Assembly (NCBI GenBank): GCA_946886325.1
Contig: CAMPIK010000134.1
Location: 1 to 6,530, forward strand
DNA from: an uncultured Shinella sp.
GTDB taxonomy: Bacteria > Pseudomonadota > Alphaproteobacteria > Rhizobiales > Rhizobiaceae
Direction of reading: 5' to 3'
DNA: 6,530 bases
Numbering within the stretch: the stretch's first letter is position 1; each line of letters begins with the position of its first letter. Below the pieces are notes generated by a model. That model saw only the letters and a program-made list of their open reading frames with translations. It did no database searches and was not told where the DNA came from. Shown piece by piece: positions 2-6,530 of this stretch. The position numbers and the translations under genes were made by a program.

Positions 2-499
2 GCGCAGGCGCTGCCCTATCTCGACGGCAAGGCCGCGCCGCTGACGGAGGTCGTCGAAGCCGCCGCATCGGACGCCAAGGCCGCCGGTGAGAAATACGGC
101 AATCCGAACAAGCAGGCCAATTCCCCCTGGACCTTTGCCGTGAAGATCGACGGCACCATCGTCGCCGCCGAAACGGAATCACGTGCCGCGACCATCGACG
201 TGGACGTGAACGCCGACGGCAAGGCGGATGCGAAGGTGCAGATCGGCCCGGCGATCCGCGGCACGGCGCTGCGCGACAGCTTCGATTTTGTCAATTTCAA
301 CGAATTCAAGAACCAGATCGAATGGGCGCAGTTCGGCAAGGCGCTGAACCAGCATGTCGACCAGAGCCTGCTTCAGCCTATCCCGCGCGACGCTCTCGTC
401 GGCAAGACGGTCAGCGTCACCGGCGCCTATCCGATGCCATCAGGCGGCGGCCTGCCGCTGGTGACGCCGGCACGCATCACCATCGGGGCCGGTTCATGA
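2..499 (+). CDS. DUF2291 family predicted periplasmic lipoprotein, 5' end missing
   Basis: The frame is open from the window edge to a TGA at 497-499, giving 165 visible residues; the start and any lipoprotein signal peptide lie upstream. The visible part has the DUF2291 pattern as I remember it: a 'SPWTFAVKIDGTIVA' strand, an acidic 'DVDVNADGKADAKVQIGP' segment that looks like an OB-like or calcium-type acidic loop, then 'IRGTALRDSFDFVNFNEF' and 'QIEWAQFGKALN', ending in a G/P-rich strand. Family members are described as predicted periplasmic lipoproteins, usually about 200 residues, and are often encoded beside RbsABC-type sugar importers. Their biochemical role is not established. The stop overlaps the start of the ATPase gene (ATGA), so translation is probably coupled. 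This supports a role as an accessory part of the importer, which is inference. The family call rests on remembered sequence pattern, not on a search. Confidence 0.8.
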   Translation, partial: AQALPYLDGKAAPLTEVVEAAASDAKAAGEKYGNPNKQANSPWTFAVKIDGTIVAAETESRAATIDVDVNADGKADAKVQIGPAIRGTALRDSFDFVNFNEFKNQIEWAQFGKALNQHVDQSLLQPIPRDALVGKTVSVTGAYPMPSGGGLPLVTPARITIGAGS

Positions 500-2076
500 G
501 TGCGGCCGAAACGACACCCGCCGATGATTGCATCCTGCATCTGGAGGACGTGACCAAGGTCTATTCCGGCATCGTCGCCGTCCGGAAGGCGAACCTCTCG
601 CTCCGGCGCGGCGCGGTCAATGTGCTCGTTGGCGAAAACGGCGCGGGCAAGTCGACGCTGATGCGCATCATCGCCGGCGTCGAGAAGCCGTCGCTCGGCC
701 GCATTCTGCTCGACGGCGAGGAGGTGAGCTTTTCCTCGCCCGCCGACGCGCAGGCGCGCGGCATCGCCATGATCTTCCAGGAGTTGAACCTCTTCGGCAA
801 TCTCTCGGTCGCCGAAAACATCTTCGCCACCCGCGAGATCACCCGCGATGTGCGCGGCATCGATCATCAGGCGCAGGTCGAGAAGGCGAACGGCTTTCTC
901 GCCAAGCTCGATGCGGATTTCACGGCGGATCAGCTGGTCGAAGACCTGCCGATCGGCCAGCAGCAGCTCGTCGAGATCGCCAAGGCGATCTCGCTTGACG
1001 CGCGCATCCTCATCATGGACGAGCCGACCTCGGCGCTGTCGGCGGCCGAAGTCGATACGCTGTTCCGCGTCATCAATGAGCTGAAGGCGCAAGGGGTGGC
1101 GATCGTCTACATCTCGCACCGGCTCGAGGAGCTGATGCGGATCGGCGACCACATCACCGTGCTTCGCGACGGCCAGATCACCGGGCAGGCGGAGGTCAAG
1201 GACATCGACACGCAATGGATCGTGCGCTCGATGATCGGTTCCGACGCCAAGGATTTCTCCAAGTCGGTTGATCACAGGATCGGCGCCGAGGCCTTTCGTG
1301 CGGAGGACATCTGCCTGCCGCGCCGGACCGGTGGCTATGCCGTCGATCACGTTTCGATTTCGGTCGGCGCCGGCGAGGTGCTCGGCATCTACGGCCTGAT
1401 GGGCGCCGGGCGCAGCGAGTTCTTCGAATGCGTCATGGGCTGCCATCCGCATGCGGCGACAGGCAGGATCTTCGTCGCCGGCGAGGAAGTGCGGGAGAGC
1501 GACACCAGCGGCCGTATCCGCCGTGGCCTTGCCCTCATCCCCGAGGATCGCCAGCGCGAGGGGCTGGTGCAGGTTCTCTCTATTGCGAGCAATCTGACGC
1601 TTGCCAGCCTCGAACGCTTCACGCGCTTCGGCTTCCATATCCGCGGCGAGCGCGAGCAGTCGTCGATCAAGGAGGCAATCCGCAACCTCGCCATCAAGGC
1701 GCCGAACCCGGATTTCGAGGTCACGTCGCTTTCGGGCGGCAACCAGCAGAAGGTGGTCATCGGCAAGGCGCTGATGACCGGTCCGAAGGTCCTGCTGATG
1801 GACGAGCCGAGCCGCGGCATCGACGTCGGCGCCAAGGCGGACGTCTTCCGCACGATGCGCAAGCTCGCGGGCGAGGGGCTCGCCATCCTCTTTTCCACCT
1901 CCGACCTCGAGGAGGTCATGGCGCTCTCCGACCGCATCGCCGTGATGAGCAACGGCCGGCTGGTGACGGTGGTCGATCGCAAGGATGCGACCGAGGAGAT
2001 GATCGTCCGGGCCTCTGCCGAAGGACACAAGACGGCCGCAGGCTCTGCCACGGACAAGACAAGGGAACATGCCTGA
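496..2076 (+). CDS. Sugar ABC transporter ATP-binding protein, RbsA/MglA type (two NBDs)
   Basis: 526 residues, the usual length for a fused two-domain sugar ABC ATPase (CUT2 class), acting on the cytoplasmic face of the inner membrane to power pentose or polyol import. NBD1 has Walker A GENGAGKST (46-54), a degenerate signature IGQQQ (153-157), Walker B ILIMDEPT (171-178) and the H-loop histidine at 208. NBD2 has a degenerate Walker A, GLMGAGRSE (300-308), in which R replaces the lysine; a canonical LSGGNQQK (412-419); Walker B VLLMDEPSRG (432-441); and no H-loop histidine (STSD, 467-470). This asymmetry is normal for RbsA-type proteins. The start at 496 was chosen over the longer frame opening at 322 because it overlaps the DUF2291 stop (ATGA) and removes a 58-residue low-complexity shadow extension. 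The stop overlaps the permease start. The substrate cannot be read from this protein; neighbours suggest D-apiose. Confidence 0.95.
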   Translation: MSAAETTPADDCILHLEDVTKVYSGIVAVRKANLSLRRGAVNVLVGENGAGKSTLMRIIAGVEKPSLGRILLDGEEVSFSSPADAQARGIAMIFQELNLFGNLSVAENIFATREITRDVRGIDHQAQVEKANGFLAKLDADFTADQLVEDLPIGQQQLVEIAKAISLDARILIMDEPTSALSAAEVDTLFRVINELKAQGVAIVYISHRLEELMRIGDHITVLRDGQITGQAEVKDIDTQWIVRSMIGSDAKDFSKSVDHRIGAEAFRAEDICLPRRTGGYAVDHVSISVGAGEVLGIYGLMGAGRSEFFECVMGCHPHAATGRIFVAGEEVRESDTSGRIRRGLALIPEDRQREGLVQVLSIASNLTLASLERFTRFGFHIRGEREQSSIKEAIRNLAIKAPNPDFEVTSLSGGNQQKVVIGKALMTGPKVLLMDEPSRGIDVGAKADVFRTMRKLAGEGLAILFSTSDLEEVMALSDRIAVMSNGRLVTVVDRKDATEEMIVRASAEGHKTAAGSATDKTREHA

Positions 2077-3140
2077 TGACCACGGCAAGCACCACCAACA
2101 CGGCGCCTGACGCCTCGACGGGCTCCGCCCTCCTGACGCTGATGAAGCTCAGGACCTTCATCGCGCTCTTCGCGGTGATCATCTTCTTCTCGATCTTCGC
2201 GCCGAACTTCCTGTCGACGGCGAACCTCATCCTGATGTCGAAGCATGTGGCGCTCAACGCCTTCCTCGCCATGGGCATGACCTTCGTCATCATCACCGGC
2301 GGCATCGACCTGTCGGTCGGCTCCATCGTCGGGCTCTGCGGCATGGTCTCGGGCAGCCTGATCCTGCACGGCATCGACCTGCAGGTCGGCTACACCCTGT
2401 ATTTCAACATCGTCGAGGTGGCGCTGATCACGCTTGCCGTCGGCGTCGTCATCGGCGCGGTCAACGGGCTCTTGATCACCAAGCTCAACGTCGCGCCCTT
2501 CATCGCGACGCTCGGCACGCTTTATGTAGCGCGCGGCTTCGCGCTGCTTTCGTCCGGCGGCCAGACCTTCCCGAACCTCGCGGGCAAGGAAGAGCTCGGC
2601 AATACCGGCTTTTCCTTCCTCGGTTCCGGCACGATCTTCGGCCTGCCCTTTTCGGTCTGGCTGCTCGTCGTGGTGGCGCTCGCCGCCGCCTATATCGCGC
2701 GGTACACGCCGATCGGCCGCCACATCTTCGCCGTCGGCGGCAACGAGCGGGCGGCGCGCATGTCGGGCATCAAGGTCGACCGGGTGAAGATGTTCGTCTA
2801 CATGTTCTCCGGCTTCTGCGCGGCGATCGTCGGCCTCATCATCTCGTCCGAACTGATGGCCTCGCATCCGGCGACGGGCAATTCCTTCGAGCTCAACGCC
2901 ATCGCCGCGGCGGTGCTCGGCGGCACCTCGATGTCCGGCGGGCGCGGCACGATCGGCGGCACGATCATCGGCGCCTTCGTCATCGGCATCCTGTCGGACG
3001 GCCTCGTCATGATGGGCGTCTCCTCCTTCTGGCAGATGGTCATCAAGGGCGTCGTCATCATCGTCGCCGTGGTGGTGGACCAGGCACAGCGGCGCTTGCA
3101 GCAGCAGGTGACGCTGATGCAACTGGCGAAGAAGGGGTGA
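2076..3140 (+). CDS. Sugar ABC transporter permease, RbsC type
   Basis: 354 residues of a polytopic inner-membrane permease (BPD_transp_2 family), which forms the transmembrane pore with the preceding ATPase. A short cytoplasmic S/T-rich tail (1-25) is followed by a hydrophobic segment (about 27-45). The family motif GGIDLSVGS is at 75-83. The cytoplasmic coupling region GRHIFAVGGNERAARMSGI is at 214-232 and the conserved LGGTSMSGGRG at 281-291; further hydrophobic helices lie at about 113-135, 190-208, 238-258, 292-312 and 318-336. The start at 2076 overlaps the ATPase stop (TGATG), with an AGGGA Shine-Dalgarno-like stretch at 2062-2066. A longer frame running upstream to 1428 is only a shadow over the ATPase gene. 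No solute-binding protein is encoded in the window; it probably lies upstream of the DUF2291 gene. Confidence 0.95.
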   Translation: MTTASTTNTAPDASTGSALLTLMKLRTFIALFAVIIFFSIFAPNFLSTANLILMSKHVALNAFLAMGMTFVIITGGIDLSVGSIVGLCGMVSGSLILHGIDLQVGYTLYFNIVEVALITLAVGVVIGAVNGLLITKLNVAPFIATLGTLYVARGFALLSSGGQTFPNLAGKEELGNTGFSFLGSGTIFGLPFSVWLLVVVALAAAYIARYTPIGRHIFAVGGNERAARMSGIKVDRVKMFVYMFSGFCAAIVGLIISSELMASHPATGNSFELNAIAAAVLGGTSMSGGRGTIGGTIIGAFVIGILSDGLVMMGVSSFWQMVIKGVVIIVAVVVDQAQRRLQQQVTLMQLAKKG

Positions 3141-3203
3141 GGGTCTCGGCTTCAATCGAACGGACTTGTTGCCGTCCCACGACTACTCTGCGATTTTGCC
3201 GCT

Positions 3204-3428
3204 ATGGAACCTTCTAAAGTTTGCGACCGAGATACGTTTATCGAATTCCTGCAGCAGTTCAGGTCGGAACTTTCCGATCCTTTGCTCTCTGAAAATTGGG
3301 AGAATACGGACCTTATGAGCTTCCTGGAAGCTATGCAGGCATGGACTGAGGACTGGCATGAATCTTTTCCAGACAATCCATGGGAACACGCAGCCACCAT
3401 GCTGCATGTGGCGAGTACTTACGAATAA
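3204..3428 (+). CDS. Small DUF7660-like protein
   Basis: 74 residues, acidic, with no signal peptide or membrane segment, so probably cytoplasmic. The sequence follows the DUF7660 pattern as I remember it: an N-terminal 'DTFIEFLQQFRSEL' helix (about 10-23), then 'WENTDLMSFLEAMQAWTED' (about 32-50), then a short helical end closing on 'ASTYE'. Length and the Y-E terminus fit the family. Function is not established. Small acidic proteins of this kind are often found among immunity genes of polymorphic toxin loci, which is inference here, and no toxin gene is in the window. ATG at 3204 is the first start in a frame open from just after the permease TGA. No good Shine-Dalgarno precedes it. GC content is near 50 %, unlike the flanking operon. 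The stop overlaps an ATG at 3428 (TAATG), but that ORF closes after 22 codons. Confidence 0.75.
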   Translation: MEPSKVCDRDTFIEFLQQFRSELSDPLLSENWENTDLMSFLEAMQAWTEDWHESFPDNPWEHAATMLHVASTYE

Positions 3429-3510
3429 TGTTGGTAATTGCACTGCCGACGAATTCTCAAAAAAGTCGAACGGCGCTACCTCTGTCGGGTCACTGAGGGA
3501 TTTCCAATAG

Positions 3511-3815
3511 ATGAGTCGAAGAATATTGCGGCTTTTGTGTCTTATTATGCCACTGATGTGGATGTTCTTTATTGCTTGGGGGGGCGGTTGGCTCCGATGC
3601 GTGAAAATTATTCAGAACTGTGGACAGAGCATGATGATATGAAAAAGCTGAATGCTTCCGTTTCGTCGTCCGGTGACAGTCTGAGTGACGTCTTTGAGTA
3701 TATGTGCACGAACAGGGGTTATTATTTAGAGGCACTTGAATTGTTCTTGTTGGCGGGCGTTATGCCGGCATTGGTCGCATACTTCCTTATGGCTATGCGT
3801 AAAGCCAACACGTAA
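3511..3815 (+). CDS. Probable small two-TM membrane protein, frame interrupted at a G7 run
   Basis: No family recognised. From ATG 3511 one frame encodes MSRRILR, then a clear hydrophobic helix (LLCLIMPLMWMFFIAW, residues 8-23), and then would stop at 3640. At the G7 run (3578-3584) a -1 shift joins it to the frame ending at 3815. The joined product is about 101 residues: helix 1, a polar loop (RLAPMRENYSELW and onward), then helix 2 (LELFLLAGVMPALVAYFLMA) and a basic MRK end. Positive charges flank both helices on what would be the cytoplasmic side, giving a consistent N-in/C-in topology. A GAGGG sequence lies at 3495-3499, 11 bases before the ATG. Read without a shift, the 3' frame extends up to a TTG at 3438, but its N-terminal part (Cys- and Arg-rich, no helix) looks unnatural. 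The break could be a real frameshift mutation, slippage-dependent expression, or a sequencing error. Confidence 0.5.
3578..3584 (+). repeat. Homopolymer run of seven G inside the small membrane protein gene
   Basis: T3577 is followed by seven G and then C3585. With eight G (or five) the upstream helix-encoding frame and the downstream frame would be continuous as W-G-(G)-R. Such runs are prone to length change at replication, to polymerase slippage in transcription and to miscalling in sequencing. It is the longest G run I saw in the window. Confidence 0.6.
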
Positions 3816-3891
3816 GCGCCCTTCTCAATTGTATGCCTATTGATCGATCCTCTTTTAGAGAGGAGCTGAGGGCTTCCCAAGAACCTATGAC

Positions 3892-3896
3892 GGGAG
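3892..3896 (+). promoter_or_regulatory. Ribosome binding site of apsD, decides the start
   Basis: GGGAG lies five bases before ATG 3902. Two other in-frame starts lie upstream, at 3833 and 3887, but neither has a purine-rich site at a good distance. Starting at 3902 also puts the Rossmann strand (LKGALIGCG) directly at the N-terminus, as usual for the Gfo/Idh/MocA family. Confidence 0.65.
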
Positions 3897-3901
3897 ACAC
3901 C

Positions 3902-4936
3902 ATGACGAACCTCAAGGGCGCACTGATCGGCTGCGGCTTCTTCGCCGTCAACCAGATGCATGGCTGGCGGGATGCCGAGGGCGCGGAGATCGTGGCGATC
4001 TGCGACCGCGATCCCGAACGGCTGAAGCTTGTCGGCGACCAGTTCGACATCGAGCGGCGCTATGAAGATGCGGTGAAGATGTTCGCCGAAGGCGGCTTCG
4101 ATTTTGTCGATATCGCGACGACGGTTAGCAGCCACCGCGCGCTCGTCGAGCTTGCCGCCTCCCACAGAATGCCGGTCATCTGCCAGAAGCCCTTCGCGCC
4201 GACGATGGAGGACGCAAAGGCCATGGTCGCCGCCTGCGAGGCGGCCGGCGTGCCGCTGATGATCCACGAGAATTTCCGCTGGCAATCGCCGATGCTGGCG
4301 GCGAAGGCCGCGCTCGACAGCGGCGCGATCGGCGAGGTCTTCTGGGGGCGTGTCAGCTTCCGTTCCGGCTACGATGTCTTCTCTGGCCAGCCCTATCTGG
4401 CAACCGGCAAGCGCTTCATCATCGAGGATCTCGGCATCCATGCGCTCGACATCGCCCGCTTCCTCTTCGGTGATGCCACGGCGATCACCGCGCGCACGAA
4501 ACGGGTCAACCCCGACATTGCCGGCGAGGATGTCGCGACCATGCTGCTCGACCATGCCCGTGGCGTCACCTCCGTCGTCGATTGCAGCTATGCGACGAAG
4601 CTGCCGGTGGAGCCCTTCCCGGAGACTCTGCTGGAGGTGGACGGCAGCCGCGGCACGCTGCGCCTGTCGCAGAGCTATCGCCTGACGGTGCATTCGCCTG
4701 ATGGAACGGAGACGAGCGATGTCAGCCCGCCGCTCCTGCCCTGGGCGTCGCAGCCGTGGCACAATATCCAGGAGAGCGTGGCGCTCATCCAGCAGCACTG
4801 GACCGACTGCCTGAAGGCGGGCCGCGAACCGGATACATCGGGCGCCGACAACCTGAAGACCTTCGCGCTGGTCGAGGCCGCCTATCTGAGCGCCGCCGAG
4901 GGCCGCACCGTGGCCCTCTCGGAGGTGCTCGGATGA
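3902..4936 (+). CDS. apsD: Gfo/Idh/MocA family oxidoreductase, probable D-apiose dehydrogenase
   Basis: 344 residues, cytoplasmic. The N-terminal Rossmann domain (about 1-120) has the dinucleotide loop GCGFFA at 10-15 and an acidic end of strand 2 at 'ICDRDPER' (33-40), which favours NAD(H). The family's EKP-type motif reads CQKPFAP with K96-P97. The C-terminal catalytic domain carries ENFRW (123-127) and EDLGIHALD (175-183), so the expected catalytic Lys96, Asp176 and His180 are present. From established work on apiose catabolism, ApsD oxidises D-apiose to D-apionolactone. I assign that activity because the sequence resembles remembered ApsD proteins and because the next gene resembles the matching lactonase ApnL. 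Another sugar or polyol dehydrogenase of the same family is the alternative. The stop overlaps the apnL start (ATGA). The gene is high in GC, unlike the block just upstream, which separates it from the transporter genes. Confidence 0.8.
   Translation: MTNLKGALIGCGFFAVNQMHGWRDAEGAEIVAICDRDPERLKLVGDQFDIERRYEDAVKMFAEGGFDFVDIATTVSSHRALVELAASHRMPVICQKPFAPTMEDAKAMVAACEAAGVPLMIHENFRWQSPMLAAKAALDSGAIGEVFWGRVSFRSGYDVFSGQPYLATGKRFIIEDLGIHALDIARFLFGDATAITARTKRVNPDIAGEDVATMLLDHARGVTSVVDCSYATKLPVEPFPETLLEVDGSRGTLRLSQSYRLTVHSPDGTETSDVSPPLLPWASQPWHNIQESVALIQQHWTDCLKAGREPDTSGADNLKTFALVEAAYLSAAEGRTVALSEVLG
4921..4925 (+). promoter_or_regulatory. Ribosome binding site of apnL
   Basis: GGAGG lies seven bases before ATG 4933, inside the end of apsD. 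Together with the ATGA stop-start overlap it fixes the start of the downstream gene and implies coupled translation. Confidence 0.75.
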
Positions 4937-6530
4937 GCGCCCCGGCCGGGTTCCTGCTCTATGGCACGGACGAACGCGAGCCGGAGGCGCTGCGGCTCGA
5001 GGCCGGCTATCTCTCCGCGGACCTGATCGCCGGCAACCTGCGCACCATCCGTTTCCGCGACGTAGAGGTGCTGCGCGCCGTCTCCTTCCTCGTGCGCGAC
5101 CGCGACTGGGGGACCTGCGAGGCGGTGATCTCCGATCTCGCGGTGACGCAGACCGGCCAGAGTTTTGCCGTCACCTACCGCGCCAGCTTCGCGGCGCCAG
5201 ATGGTGCCGTGCTCACCTGCCACGCCTCGATCACCGGCACGCCCGGCCGGCTGAATTTCGAGGCCGAGTTCACGCCCGACCGCGATTTCGAGACGGCGCG
5301 CACCGGCTTTGCGATCCTGCACCCGATCGTCGGTGTGGCCGGCCGGCCGGTGACGGTCGAACACAGCGACGGTTCCGTCGAGGAGGCTGTCTTCCCCGAC
5401 CGGATCGAGCCCTGGCAGCCCTTCATGGACATCGCCGCGCTGACGCACGCGCCGGCGCCCGGTCTCGTCGCCGAATGCCGCATGGCGGGCGACGTCTTCG
5501 AGATGGAGGACCAGCGCAACTGGACGGATGGCTCCTACAAGACCTATGTGCGGCCGCTGGCACTGCCCTGGCCTTACAGGTTGAAGGCCGGCGAGACGGT
5601 GCGCCAGTCGGTCCGACTGACGCTCAAGGCCGGCCTTGCCGTGCCTGCGGTCGCGAAAGCGCCGGAGGCCGCCCGGCTTTCGCTCGGTCAGGCGATCGGC
5701 CAGATGCCTGCCATCGGCGTCGGACTGAGGCCGGATTGCATCGACGAAGAGCGGCGCCATGCCGGTCTTCTGCGGGACATGGGTGCGGTTCGCCTCGTCG
5801 CCCATTTCGATCCGGTCGCCGGCCATGGCGTGAGGGAACTCGCAGGCTTCGCGGAGATCGCCGCCGCCTCCGGCCTGCCCGTGACGCTGGAATGTTTCGT
5901 GCCCTGCAAGGCCGACCTCGATGCCGAGATGGCCGCCATCGCCGGCCAGGTGCGCGAGAGCGGCCTCGTGCTTGCCGACATCGCCGTCTCGCCCTCGGTC
6001 GACCGGCAATCGACGCCACCCGGCAGCACATGGCCGGATTGCCCGCCGCTGGAAGACGTCTACGCCGCGGCGCGAAAGGCGTTTCCCGGCCTGCCGCTCG
6101 GCGGCGGCATGTTCAGCTATTTCACCGAACTGAACCGCAAGCGCGTGCCGTCAGGCCCGCTCGACTACGTCACCCATTGCACCAATCCCATCGTGCATGC
6201 GGCCGACGATCTCTCCGTCATGCAGACCTTCGAGGCGCTGTCGGACGTCGTTCGCTCGGCCCGCGCCATCTACGGCGACAAGCCCTATCGCATCGGCCCC
6301 TCGACCATCGCCATGCGCCAGAACCCCTATGGCAGCGCAACAAAGGACAATCCCTCGGACAAGCGCATCGCCATGGCCAATCGCGATCCGCGCCACAACG
6401 CCCTCTTCGGCGCCGCCTGGACGCTCGCCTATGCCGCGACGGTGGCAGAAGCCCGCCTCGACCTGCTGACGCTGTCAACGCTGGCCGGCCCCTTCGGACT
6501 GGTCGCGGGGGAGGGCGAGCCGGTAGAGGC
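4933..6530 (+). CDS. apnL: Probable D-apionate lactonase, 3' end beyond window
   Basis: The frame is open for 532 codons to the window edge with no stop, so the C-terminus is missing. Two regions can be seen. Residues 1 to about 235 are rich in beta strands ('GNLRTIRFRDVEVLRAVSF', 'DRDWGTCEAVISDL', 'ITGTPGRLNFEAEFTPD'), suggesting a beta-sandwich. From about 260 onward the pattern is that of an alpha/beta barrel: IGVGLRPD (261-268), LPLGGGMFSYFTELNR (387-402), CTNPIVHAADD (416-426) and a QNPYG segment near 464-468. There is no signal peptide, so it is probably cytoplasmic. ApnL hydrolyses D-apionolactone to D-apionate, the step after ApsD. The call rests on remembered family resemblance and the coupled apsD neighbour. 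Start at 4933 is set by the ATGA overlap and the GGAGG site. Which residues are catalytic cannot be decided from this reading. Confidence 0.75.
   Translation, partial: MSAPAGFLLYGTDEREPEALRLEAGYLSADLIAGNLRTIRFRDVEVLRAVSFLVRDRDWGTCEAVISDLAVTQTGQSFAVTYRASFAAPDGAVLTCHASITGTPGRLNFEAEFTPDRDFETARTGFAILHPIVGVAGRPVTVEHSDGSVEEAVFPDRIEPWQPFMDIAALTHAPAPGLVAECRMAGDVFEMEDQRNWTDGSYKTYVRPLALPWPYRLKAGETVRQSVRLTLKAGLAVPAVAKAPEAARLSLGQAIGQMPAIGVGLRPDCIDEERRHAGLLRDMGAVRLVAHFDPVAGHGVRELAGFAEIAAASGLPVTLECFVPCKADLDAEMAAIAGQVRESGLVLADIAVSPSVDRQSTPPGSTWPDCPPLEDVYAAARKAFPGLPLGGGMFSYFTELNRKRVPSGPLDYVTHCTNPIVHAADDLSVMQTFEALSDVVRSARAIYGDKPYRIGPSTIAMRQNPYGSATKDNPSDKRIAMANRDPRHNALFGAAWTLAYAATVAEARLDLLTLSTLAGPFGLVAGEGEPVE

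Follow-up and report, generated by a model that had tools for sequence, protein, structure and literature searches.

Why does a stretch of GC-poor DNA lie between the transport genes and the catabolic genes of an apiose/apionate operon, and what might its small genes do there? The window, a stretch of 6,530 nucleotides from an uncultured Shinella sp., carries all its genes on the + strand, in the order DUF2291, ATPase, permease, block, apsD, and ApnL. The first operon gene visible codes for a DUF2291 lipoprotein (2..499, 5' end beyond the window; Pfam PF10054, 175 bits). It is followed by a sugar ABC transporter ATPase (496..2076; Pfam ABC_tran), for which the best NCBIfam models are xylose- or ribose-type and score under their cut-offs, and by a sugar ABC transporter permease (2076..3140; Pfam BPD_transp_2), which shows 99 % protein identity to Rhizobium alarense (L001) over 2088-3137 by tblastn. 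Downstream of the block are an apsD-type Gfo/Idh/MocA oxidoreductase (3902..4936; Pfam GFO_IDH_MocA), whose name is taken from the original prediction and whose protein is 92 % identical to that of R. alarense, and the D-apionate lactonase ApnL (4933..6530, 3' end beyond the window; NCBIfam NF049900, 815 bits, cut-off 750). As had been claimed, the other junctions overlap slightly, by ATGA at 496-499 between DUF2291 and ATPase (4 bases), TGATG at 2074-2078 between ATPase and permease (1 base), and ATGA at 4933-4936 between apsD and apnL (4 bases). Between the permease, which stops at 3140, and apsD, which starts at 3902, lie 761 bases, and the low GC content noticed there is borne out by the measurement, being 48.1 % for 3141-3901 versus 66.2 % for the remainder of the window.

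At third codon positions the GC content is 0.53 for the first block gene, compared with 0.95 for the permease and 0.86 for apsD. In a comparison based on overlapping segments of 746 bases taken in steps of 50, a segment as GC-poor as 3141-3886 (GC 0.479) occurs in 0 of 246 cases in R. alarense and in 0 of 19,114 across 80 related loci. The window and R. alarense have the permease end in common, and likewise the bases 3890-3904, which precede the apsD start and run into it; the block is therefore placed at about 3141-3889, so that it begins at the permease stop codon and ends just short of the apsD ribosome-binding region (3890..3901, + strand), which we regard as a remnant of the ancestral junction. 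The edge regions hold no direct repeats of at least 7 bases and a single inverted match of 7 bases. A mobile cassette or transposon was rejected as a reading of the block, because end repeats and a target-site duplication are absent, and no mobility gene is seen beside the block in the window. Searching plasmid DNA with 3100-3950 matched the flanks alone, and Rfam at the gathering threshold gave zero matches. Within 2900-4100, no promoters were found where 0.5 would be expected (sigma-70 consensus only), and the one terminator-like site (3262-3279, inside the first block gene) compares with 1.4 expected, so that nothing exceeds chance.

The idea that the block is an insertion was followed into related apsD loci, where it holds up. 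An ApsD scan of genome contigs yielded 147 relatives, the best 80 of which were taken, and neither small gene is found in any of these 80 loci (tblastn, E <= 1e-3); the block is thus not kept in most relatives. For the junction count, 12 of the 80 loci were left out, having no upstream permease match; in one of them (L007), the reason is that the contig begins at this place. In the other 68 loci, the gap between permease and apsD measures at most 20 bases in 52, 21-150 in 2, and 151-300 in 14, which means a direct junction in 52 of 68 and a junction filled without these genes in 16 of 68. These 16 longer gaps of 53-287 bases have a GC content of 51-65 % and, by eye, GC-rich palindromic arms. 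The nearest relative, R. alarense, has a gap of 273 bases with 64 % GC and palindromic arms (by eye), and parts of this junction element are found again across that genome (17 matches, the element itself counted).

At the three other operon junctions, the longest gap in relatives is 58 bases (66, 67, and 76 loci measured), and the block junction is therefore the sole one of four that is filled in relatives too, with other content. Since 0 of 80 relatives carry the block and the 68 junctions are either direct or palindrome-filled, the block is a new insertion or a replacement of a palindromic element, and it is not ancestral at the permease-apsD junction. The palindrome-bearing DNA of the relatives may resemble the Rhizobial intergenic repeat elements (RIME). 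The likeness lies in the palindromes seen by eye at this junction in 16 relatives; the window itself differs in having no such element.

Two small genes had been predicted within the block, of which the first is real and the second was miscalled, its frame being broken. The first gene (3204..3428, + strand) encodes a protein of 74 residues belonging to DUF7660 (Pfam PF24693, 50.5 bits, cut-off 27). The core residues W, N, L, W, D, W, A, Y, and E are common to 12 aligned members, including the one of the window, which belongs to a short-loop branch, whereas three members paired with a putative toxin domain have a longer middle loop. The family is rare, with 6 of 394 sampled genomes of the R. 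alarense family scoring over the Pfam cut-off (7 at E <= 0.001), 4 of 398 sampled genomes of its phylum, and 3 of 26 genomes of one genus; 0 of 14 control genomes matched, and a phage tblastn search with DUF7660 gave zero matches. The AlphaFold model consists of three helices (mean pLDDT 69.0, pTM 0.46, from 2 sequences) and was judged too weak for a fold search. In the analysis as a whole, PADLOC returned a single weak match, to JetA (E 0.02), and PDB sequence searches no match below E 0.1. The name DUF7660 was found in no paper of the literature searched, and the same is true of DUF7674.

The neighborhood of DUF7660 genes in other genomes suggests a function. On the Sinorhizobium chiapasense plasmid pA, a DUF7660 gene overlaps by 1 base the stop of an ORF of 163 residues, which sits between two transposase genes (the transposase names at L094 were tested and borne out). 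Comparing this ORF with 72,556 plasmid records matched 3, namely itself, Haliovirga abyssi, and Streptomyces globisporus, with the latter two matching from residue 61 on. The three records span Pseudomonadota, Fusobacteriota, and Actinomycetota, and in all three (2 of 2 without the query's own) the DUF7660 gene comes directly after the putative toxin domain on the same strand, with a 1-base overlap, a 3-base gap, and an overlap of 4 or 13 bases depending on the choice of start. All three DUF7660 genes score over the Pfam cut-off (89.6, 97.1, and 59.3 bits). The Streptomyces protein of 727 residues also contains a Pretoxin-HINT domain (61.2 bits, cut-off 27.7), and the Haliovirga protein matches Pre-toxin TG below threshold (20.1 bits, cut-off 23.5). 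On the Haliovirga abyssi plasmid (L102), the regions 43-4541 and 6089-10306, which bracket the pair, look like a long tandem duplication, with an integrase and a hypothetical protein of the same accessions on both sides.

By eye, RFSQ with its serine and DNRR with its NRR motif are invariant in the three domains, resembling the conserved Ser and [NT]RR motif that the available part of the source gives as marks of Tox-ParBL1 (PMC3482391). The domain matches no Pfam or NCBIfam model, and those libraries may lack one for Tox-ParBL1; the assignment, made by motif alone, suggests a toxin of the Tox-ParBL1 kind. The partners tabulated in that part of the source are Imm-SUKH and Imm44 (PMC3482391). 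The position of the gene directly after a Tox-ParBL1-like domain in three phyla, together with the Pretoxin-HINT protein and the RFSQ and NRR motifs, leads us to propose DUF7660 as a candidate immunity family. Other immunity-type neighbors of DUF7660 are a ComJ-family gene (L083), DUF7674 (L100), and SMI1/KNR4 (L096).

Viewed from the other side, the putative toxin domain is present at 3 and absent from 17 of the 20 DUF7660 loci screened, often with only 1.5 kb per side examined; one of the 20 (L098) is a weak tblastn match only, and 6 of the 11 plasmid records matching DUF7660 were examined. None of the short-loop relatives among the 20 loci was found to have the domain nearby. Within 379 genomes of the R. 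alarense family, the domain has one weak match (E 3.3e-5, 29 % identity), on a 2.3-kb locus with no DUF7660. In the window itself, which contains no gene of the Tox-ParBL1 kind, no toxin gene was recognised beside DUF7660, and we therefore call the gene an orphan within the scope of these 6.5 kb.

The second gene encodes a small two-helix membrane protein (3511..3815, + strand). An ORF of 125 residues from TTG 3438 (3438-3815) was rejected as a frame accident, the frame of the relatives starting at ATG 3511. Over 62 % of this ORF, the two relatives P0001 and P0002 show 95 and 92 % identity, and they read their N- and C-terminal parts in one frame, whereas the window's copy begins at 3511 in one frame and has its C-terminal part in another, the two parting near a G-run at 3578-3584. 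The change at this 7-G run could be a true mutation, a variable tract or a sequencing error. Full-length relatives, P0007 and P0008, show that intact copies exist in other records, and the one hydrophobic segment on each piece in the window corresponds to two in the intact P0007. The family is tiny: when 5.8 billion sequences were searched with a profile, by a method confined to relatives with short words in common, 4 proteins had E <= 0.001. It is found in 2 of 394 genomes of the R. alarense family at E <= 0.01, one of the two matches being weak (E 0.0081) and having an internal stop. A search of 382 genomes of the order gave 0, which is uninformative by itself, there being no positive genome in the set. 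A plasmid tblastn search with the relatives gave zero matches, and none was confirmed in viral contigs for the relative used there. The AlphaFold model shows two long helices (mean pLDDT 60.6, pTM 0.29, from 4 sequences) and was also judged too weak for a fold search. Two helices joined by a short loop would be fitting for a protein that protects against a toxin acting at the membrane or in the periplasm. The description of the block as immunity-type is thus supported for DUF7660 by its adjacency to putative toxins in three phyla and does not extend to an intact second gene in the window.

Both genes have relatives at other operon junctions. In Rhizobium sp. TH2, the start codon of the P0007 gene overlaps the stop codon of a hydantoinase/carbamoylase-family gene (GTGA), and a dihydropyrimidinase gene follows. 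Testing confirmed the assignments as hydantoinase/carbamoylase, dihydropyrimidinase, dihydroorotase, and PlsY (pyrC and plsY by NCBIfam on L081). The two genes flanking the TH2 junction are present in the same order in 9 of 9 genomes of that genus examined, and the junction measures 395 bases in TH2 and 300-950 bases, with other content, in the other 8. It is occupied by a LysE exporter in L106, a DUF559 protein with palindromes in L109, a MazE-like/PemK pair in L110, a CdiI_3 immunity protein in L113 (63.1 bits, cut-off 28), and proteins without a family over the cut-off in L107, L108, L111, and L112, with contents alike between L107 and L112 only. The junction of this genus (L105-L114) is hypervariable and holds mostly unrelated small genes. 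In one genome (L106 and L114), a single contig bears two copies of the hydrolase gene, one on the + strand (403-1665) and one on the - strand (24161-25423), and both copies adjoin the same 772-base junction.

A DUF7660 gene lies between pyrC (dihydroorotase) and plsY in two species of another genus (L081 and L099), and in L081 the start of the insert abuts the upstream stop. Nine sister genomes of the 26-genome set (L117-L125) were compared; eight of them lack DUF7660, and the ninth (G797) carries it at another place. With gap edges extrapolated from alignments, their pyrC-plsY gap is 10-14 bases in 3 and 105-156 bases in 6, the latter with 59-69 % GC and palindrome-like by eye. Junction contents in the window operon and at pyrC-plsY differ in such a way that one and the same junction is, from lineage to lineage, empty, filled with a repeat-like element, or occupied by an immunity-type gene. 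We tentatively suggest, as a possibility that we would not yet call probable, that junctions of rhizobial catabolic and housekeeping operons might be landing sites for lone immunity or conflict genes, which would start on or soon after a stop, end before the next ribosome-binding region, swap with palindromic repeats, and borrow the promoter.

For the window, we consider it likely that the apiose/apionate operon received, at the junction of permease and apsD, a horizontally acquired block with a putative orphan immunity gene (DUF7660) and a broken membrane-protein gene. The low GC content, the absence from relatives, the placement from stop codon to ribosome-binding region, the DUF7660 membership, and the order of putative toxin and DUF7660 in three phyla are direct observations. 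The block would either be added DNA or have taken the place of a palindromic element such as R. alarense has at this junction. With no promoter or terminator above chance, the same strand, and tight edges, its genes would most likely ride the operon message, transcribed from the promoter of the host operon. In the cytoplasm, DUF7660 may then bind and block an incoming ParB-like toxin domain from a competing bacterium, a toxin that the cell itself need not make. The short-loop protein of the window may answer the same toxin type as its longer-loop relatives, and the broken membrane-protein gene is probably of the same trade. The strongest points against this explanation are the broken second gene, the short-loop branch with no toxin partner, and a window with no whole genome behind it.

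A broken second gene would fit a decaying, unselected insert. Low-GC DNA would in that case have entered an insertion-tolerant junction and be useless to the host, an account that we regard as rather unlikely but the first of the alternatives to be weighed. The extra bases at this junction in 16 of 68 relatives indicate such tolerance, and the lack of promoter or terminator signals above chance points the same way. On the other hand, DUF7660 is intact and has kept the invariant residues of its family, related genes recur at operon junctions elsewhere, including pyrC-plsY in two species, and the parallel inserts abut (L081) or overlap (membrane-protein gene) the upstream stop.

The block could also be a toxin-antitoxin or other intracellular conflict module and not provide immunity to incoming toxins. 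Two small adjacent low-GC genes and the MazE-like/PemK pair at the comparable junction of one sister genome (L110) would agree with this, but neither DUF7660 nor the relative of the membrane protein matches a toxin or antitoxin family in Pfam, NCBIfam or PADLOC, and in Streptomyces the gene preceding DUF7660 codes for a Pretoxin-HINT protein, which makes such a module improbable. That the block marks an old boundary between two ancestral operons, with its own promoter, seems very unlikely; the junction divides transporter from enzymes and is the only one of four with long gaps in relatives, but the gap is at most 20 bases in 52 of 68 relatives and no promoter or terminator exceeds chance (sigma-70 consensus only). 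A metagenomic chimera, which would have placed foreign DNA between true operon halves and could draw on the frame break beside the 7-G run and on the window having no whole genome behind it, is slightly less credible still, as the edges fall exactly at the stop codon and the ribosome-binding region common to the nearest relative, both flanks have the same best-matching relative, and the DUF7660 protein is found on 11 contigs, though each is at most 1568 bases long with its context unseen.

The preferred reading of an acquired block with an orphan immunity gene has counterparts in known systems. According to the available parts of the sources, orphan immunity genes are known in islets, such as the S. 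Typhi interbacterial defence islet (PMC7400221), and in arrays (PMC3482391). The S. Typhi islet likewise has immunity genes without toxins, presumed there to guard against the toxins of neighbors, but consists of many genes, whereas the window has one or two alone in a catabolic operon junction, with no mobility gene seen (PMC7400221). Polyimmunity loci are similar in that their immunity genes lie on the same strand, for which a common transcript is suggested in that source, and differ in being tandem arrays; the Tox-ParBL1 partners listed in that part of the source do not include DUF7660 (PMC3482391). In the literature searched, we did not find the DUF7660 assignment, nor, among the matches listed and judged by titles and abstract openings, a description of single immunity genes in catabolic operon junctions.

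DUF7660, a Pfam family of unknown function, thereby gains a testable role as putative immunity to a ParB-like polymorphic toxin. The locus also points to immunity genes being housed singly, inside operons with a nutrient-tied promoter. If this is true, protection against the toxin would switch on with plant apiose, that is, in the crowded rhizosphere, and many small low-GC "hypothetical" genes in metabolic operons could be understood as parts of a dispersed immunity repertoire.

On a plasmid of Streptomyces sp. NBC_00826 (L097), a DUF7660-like gene (4974-5228) lies 42 bases after an FtsX-like permease gene, possibly a further case of DUF7660 at the end of a transporter operon.
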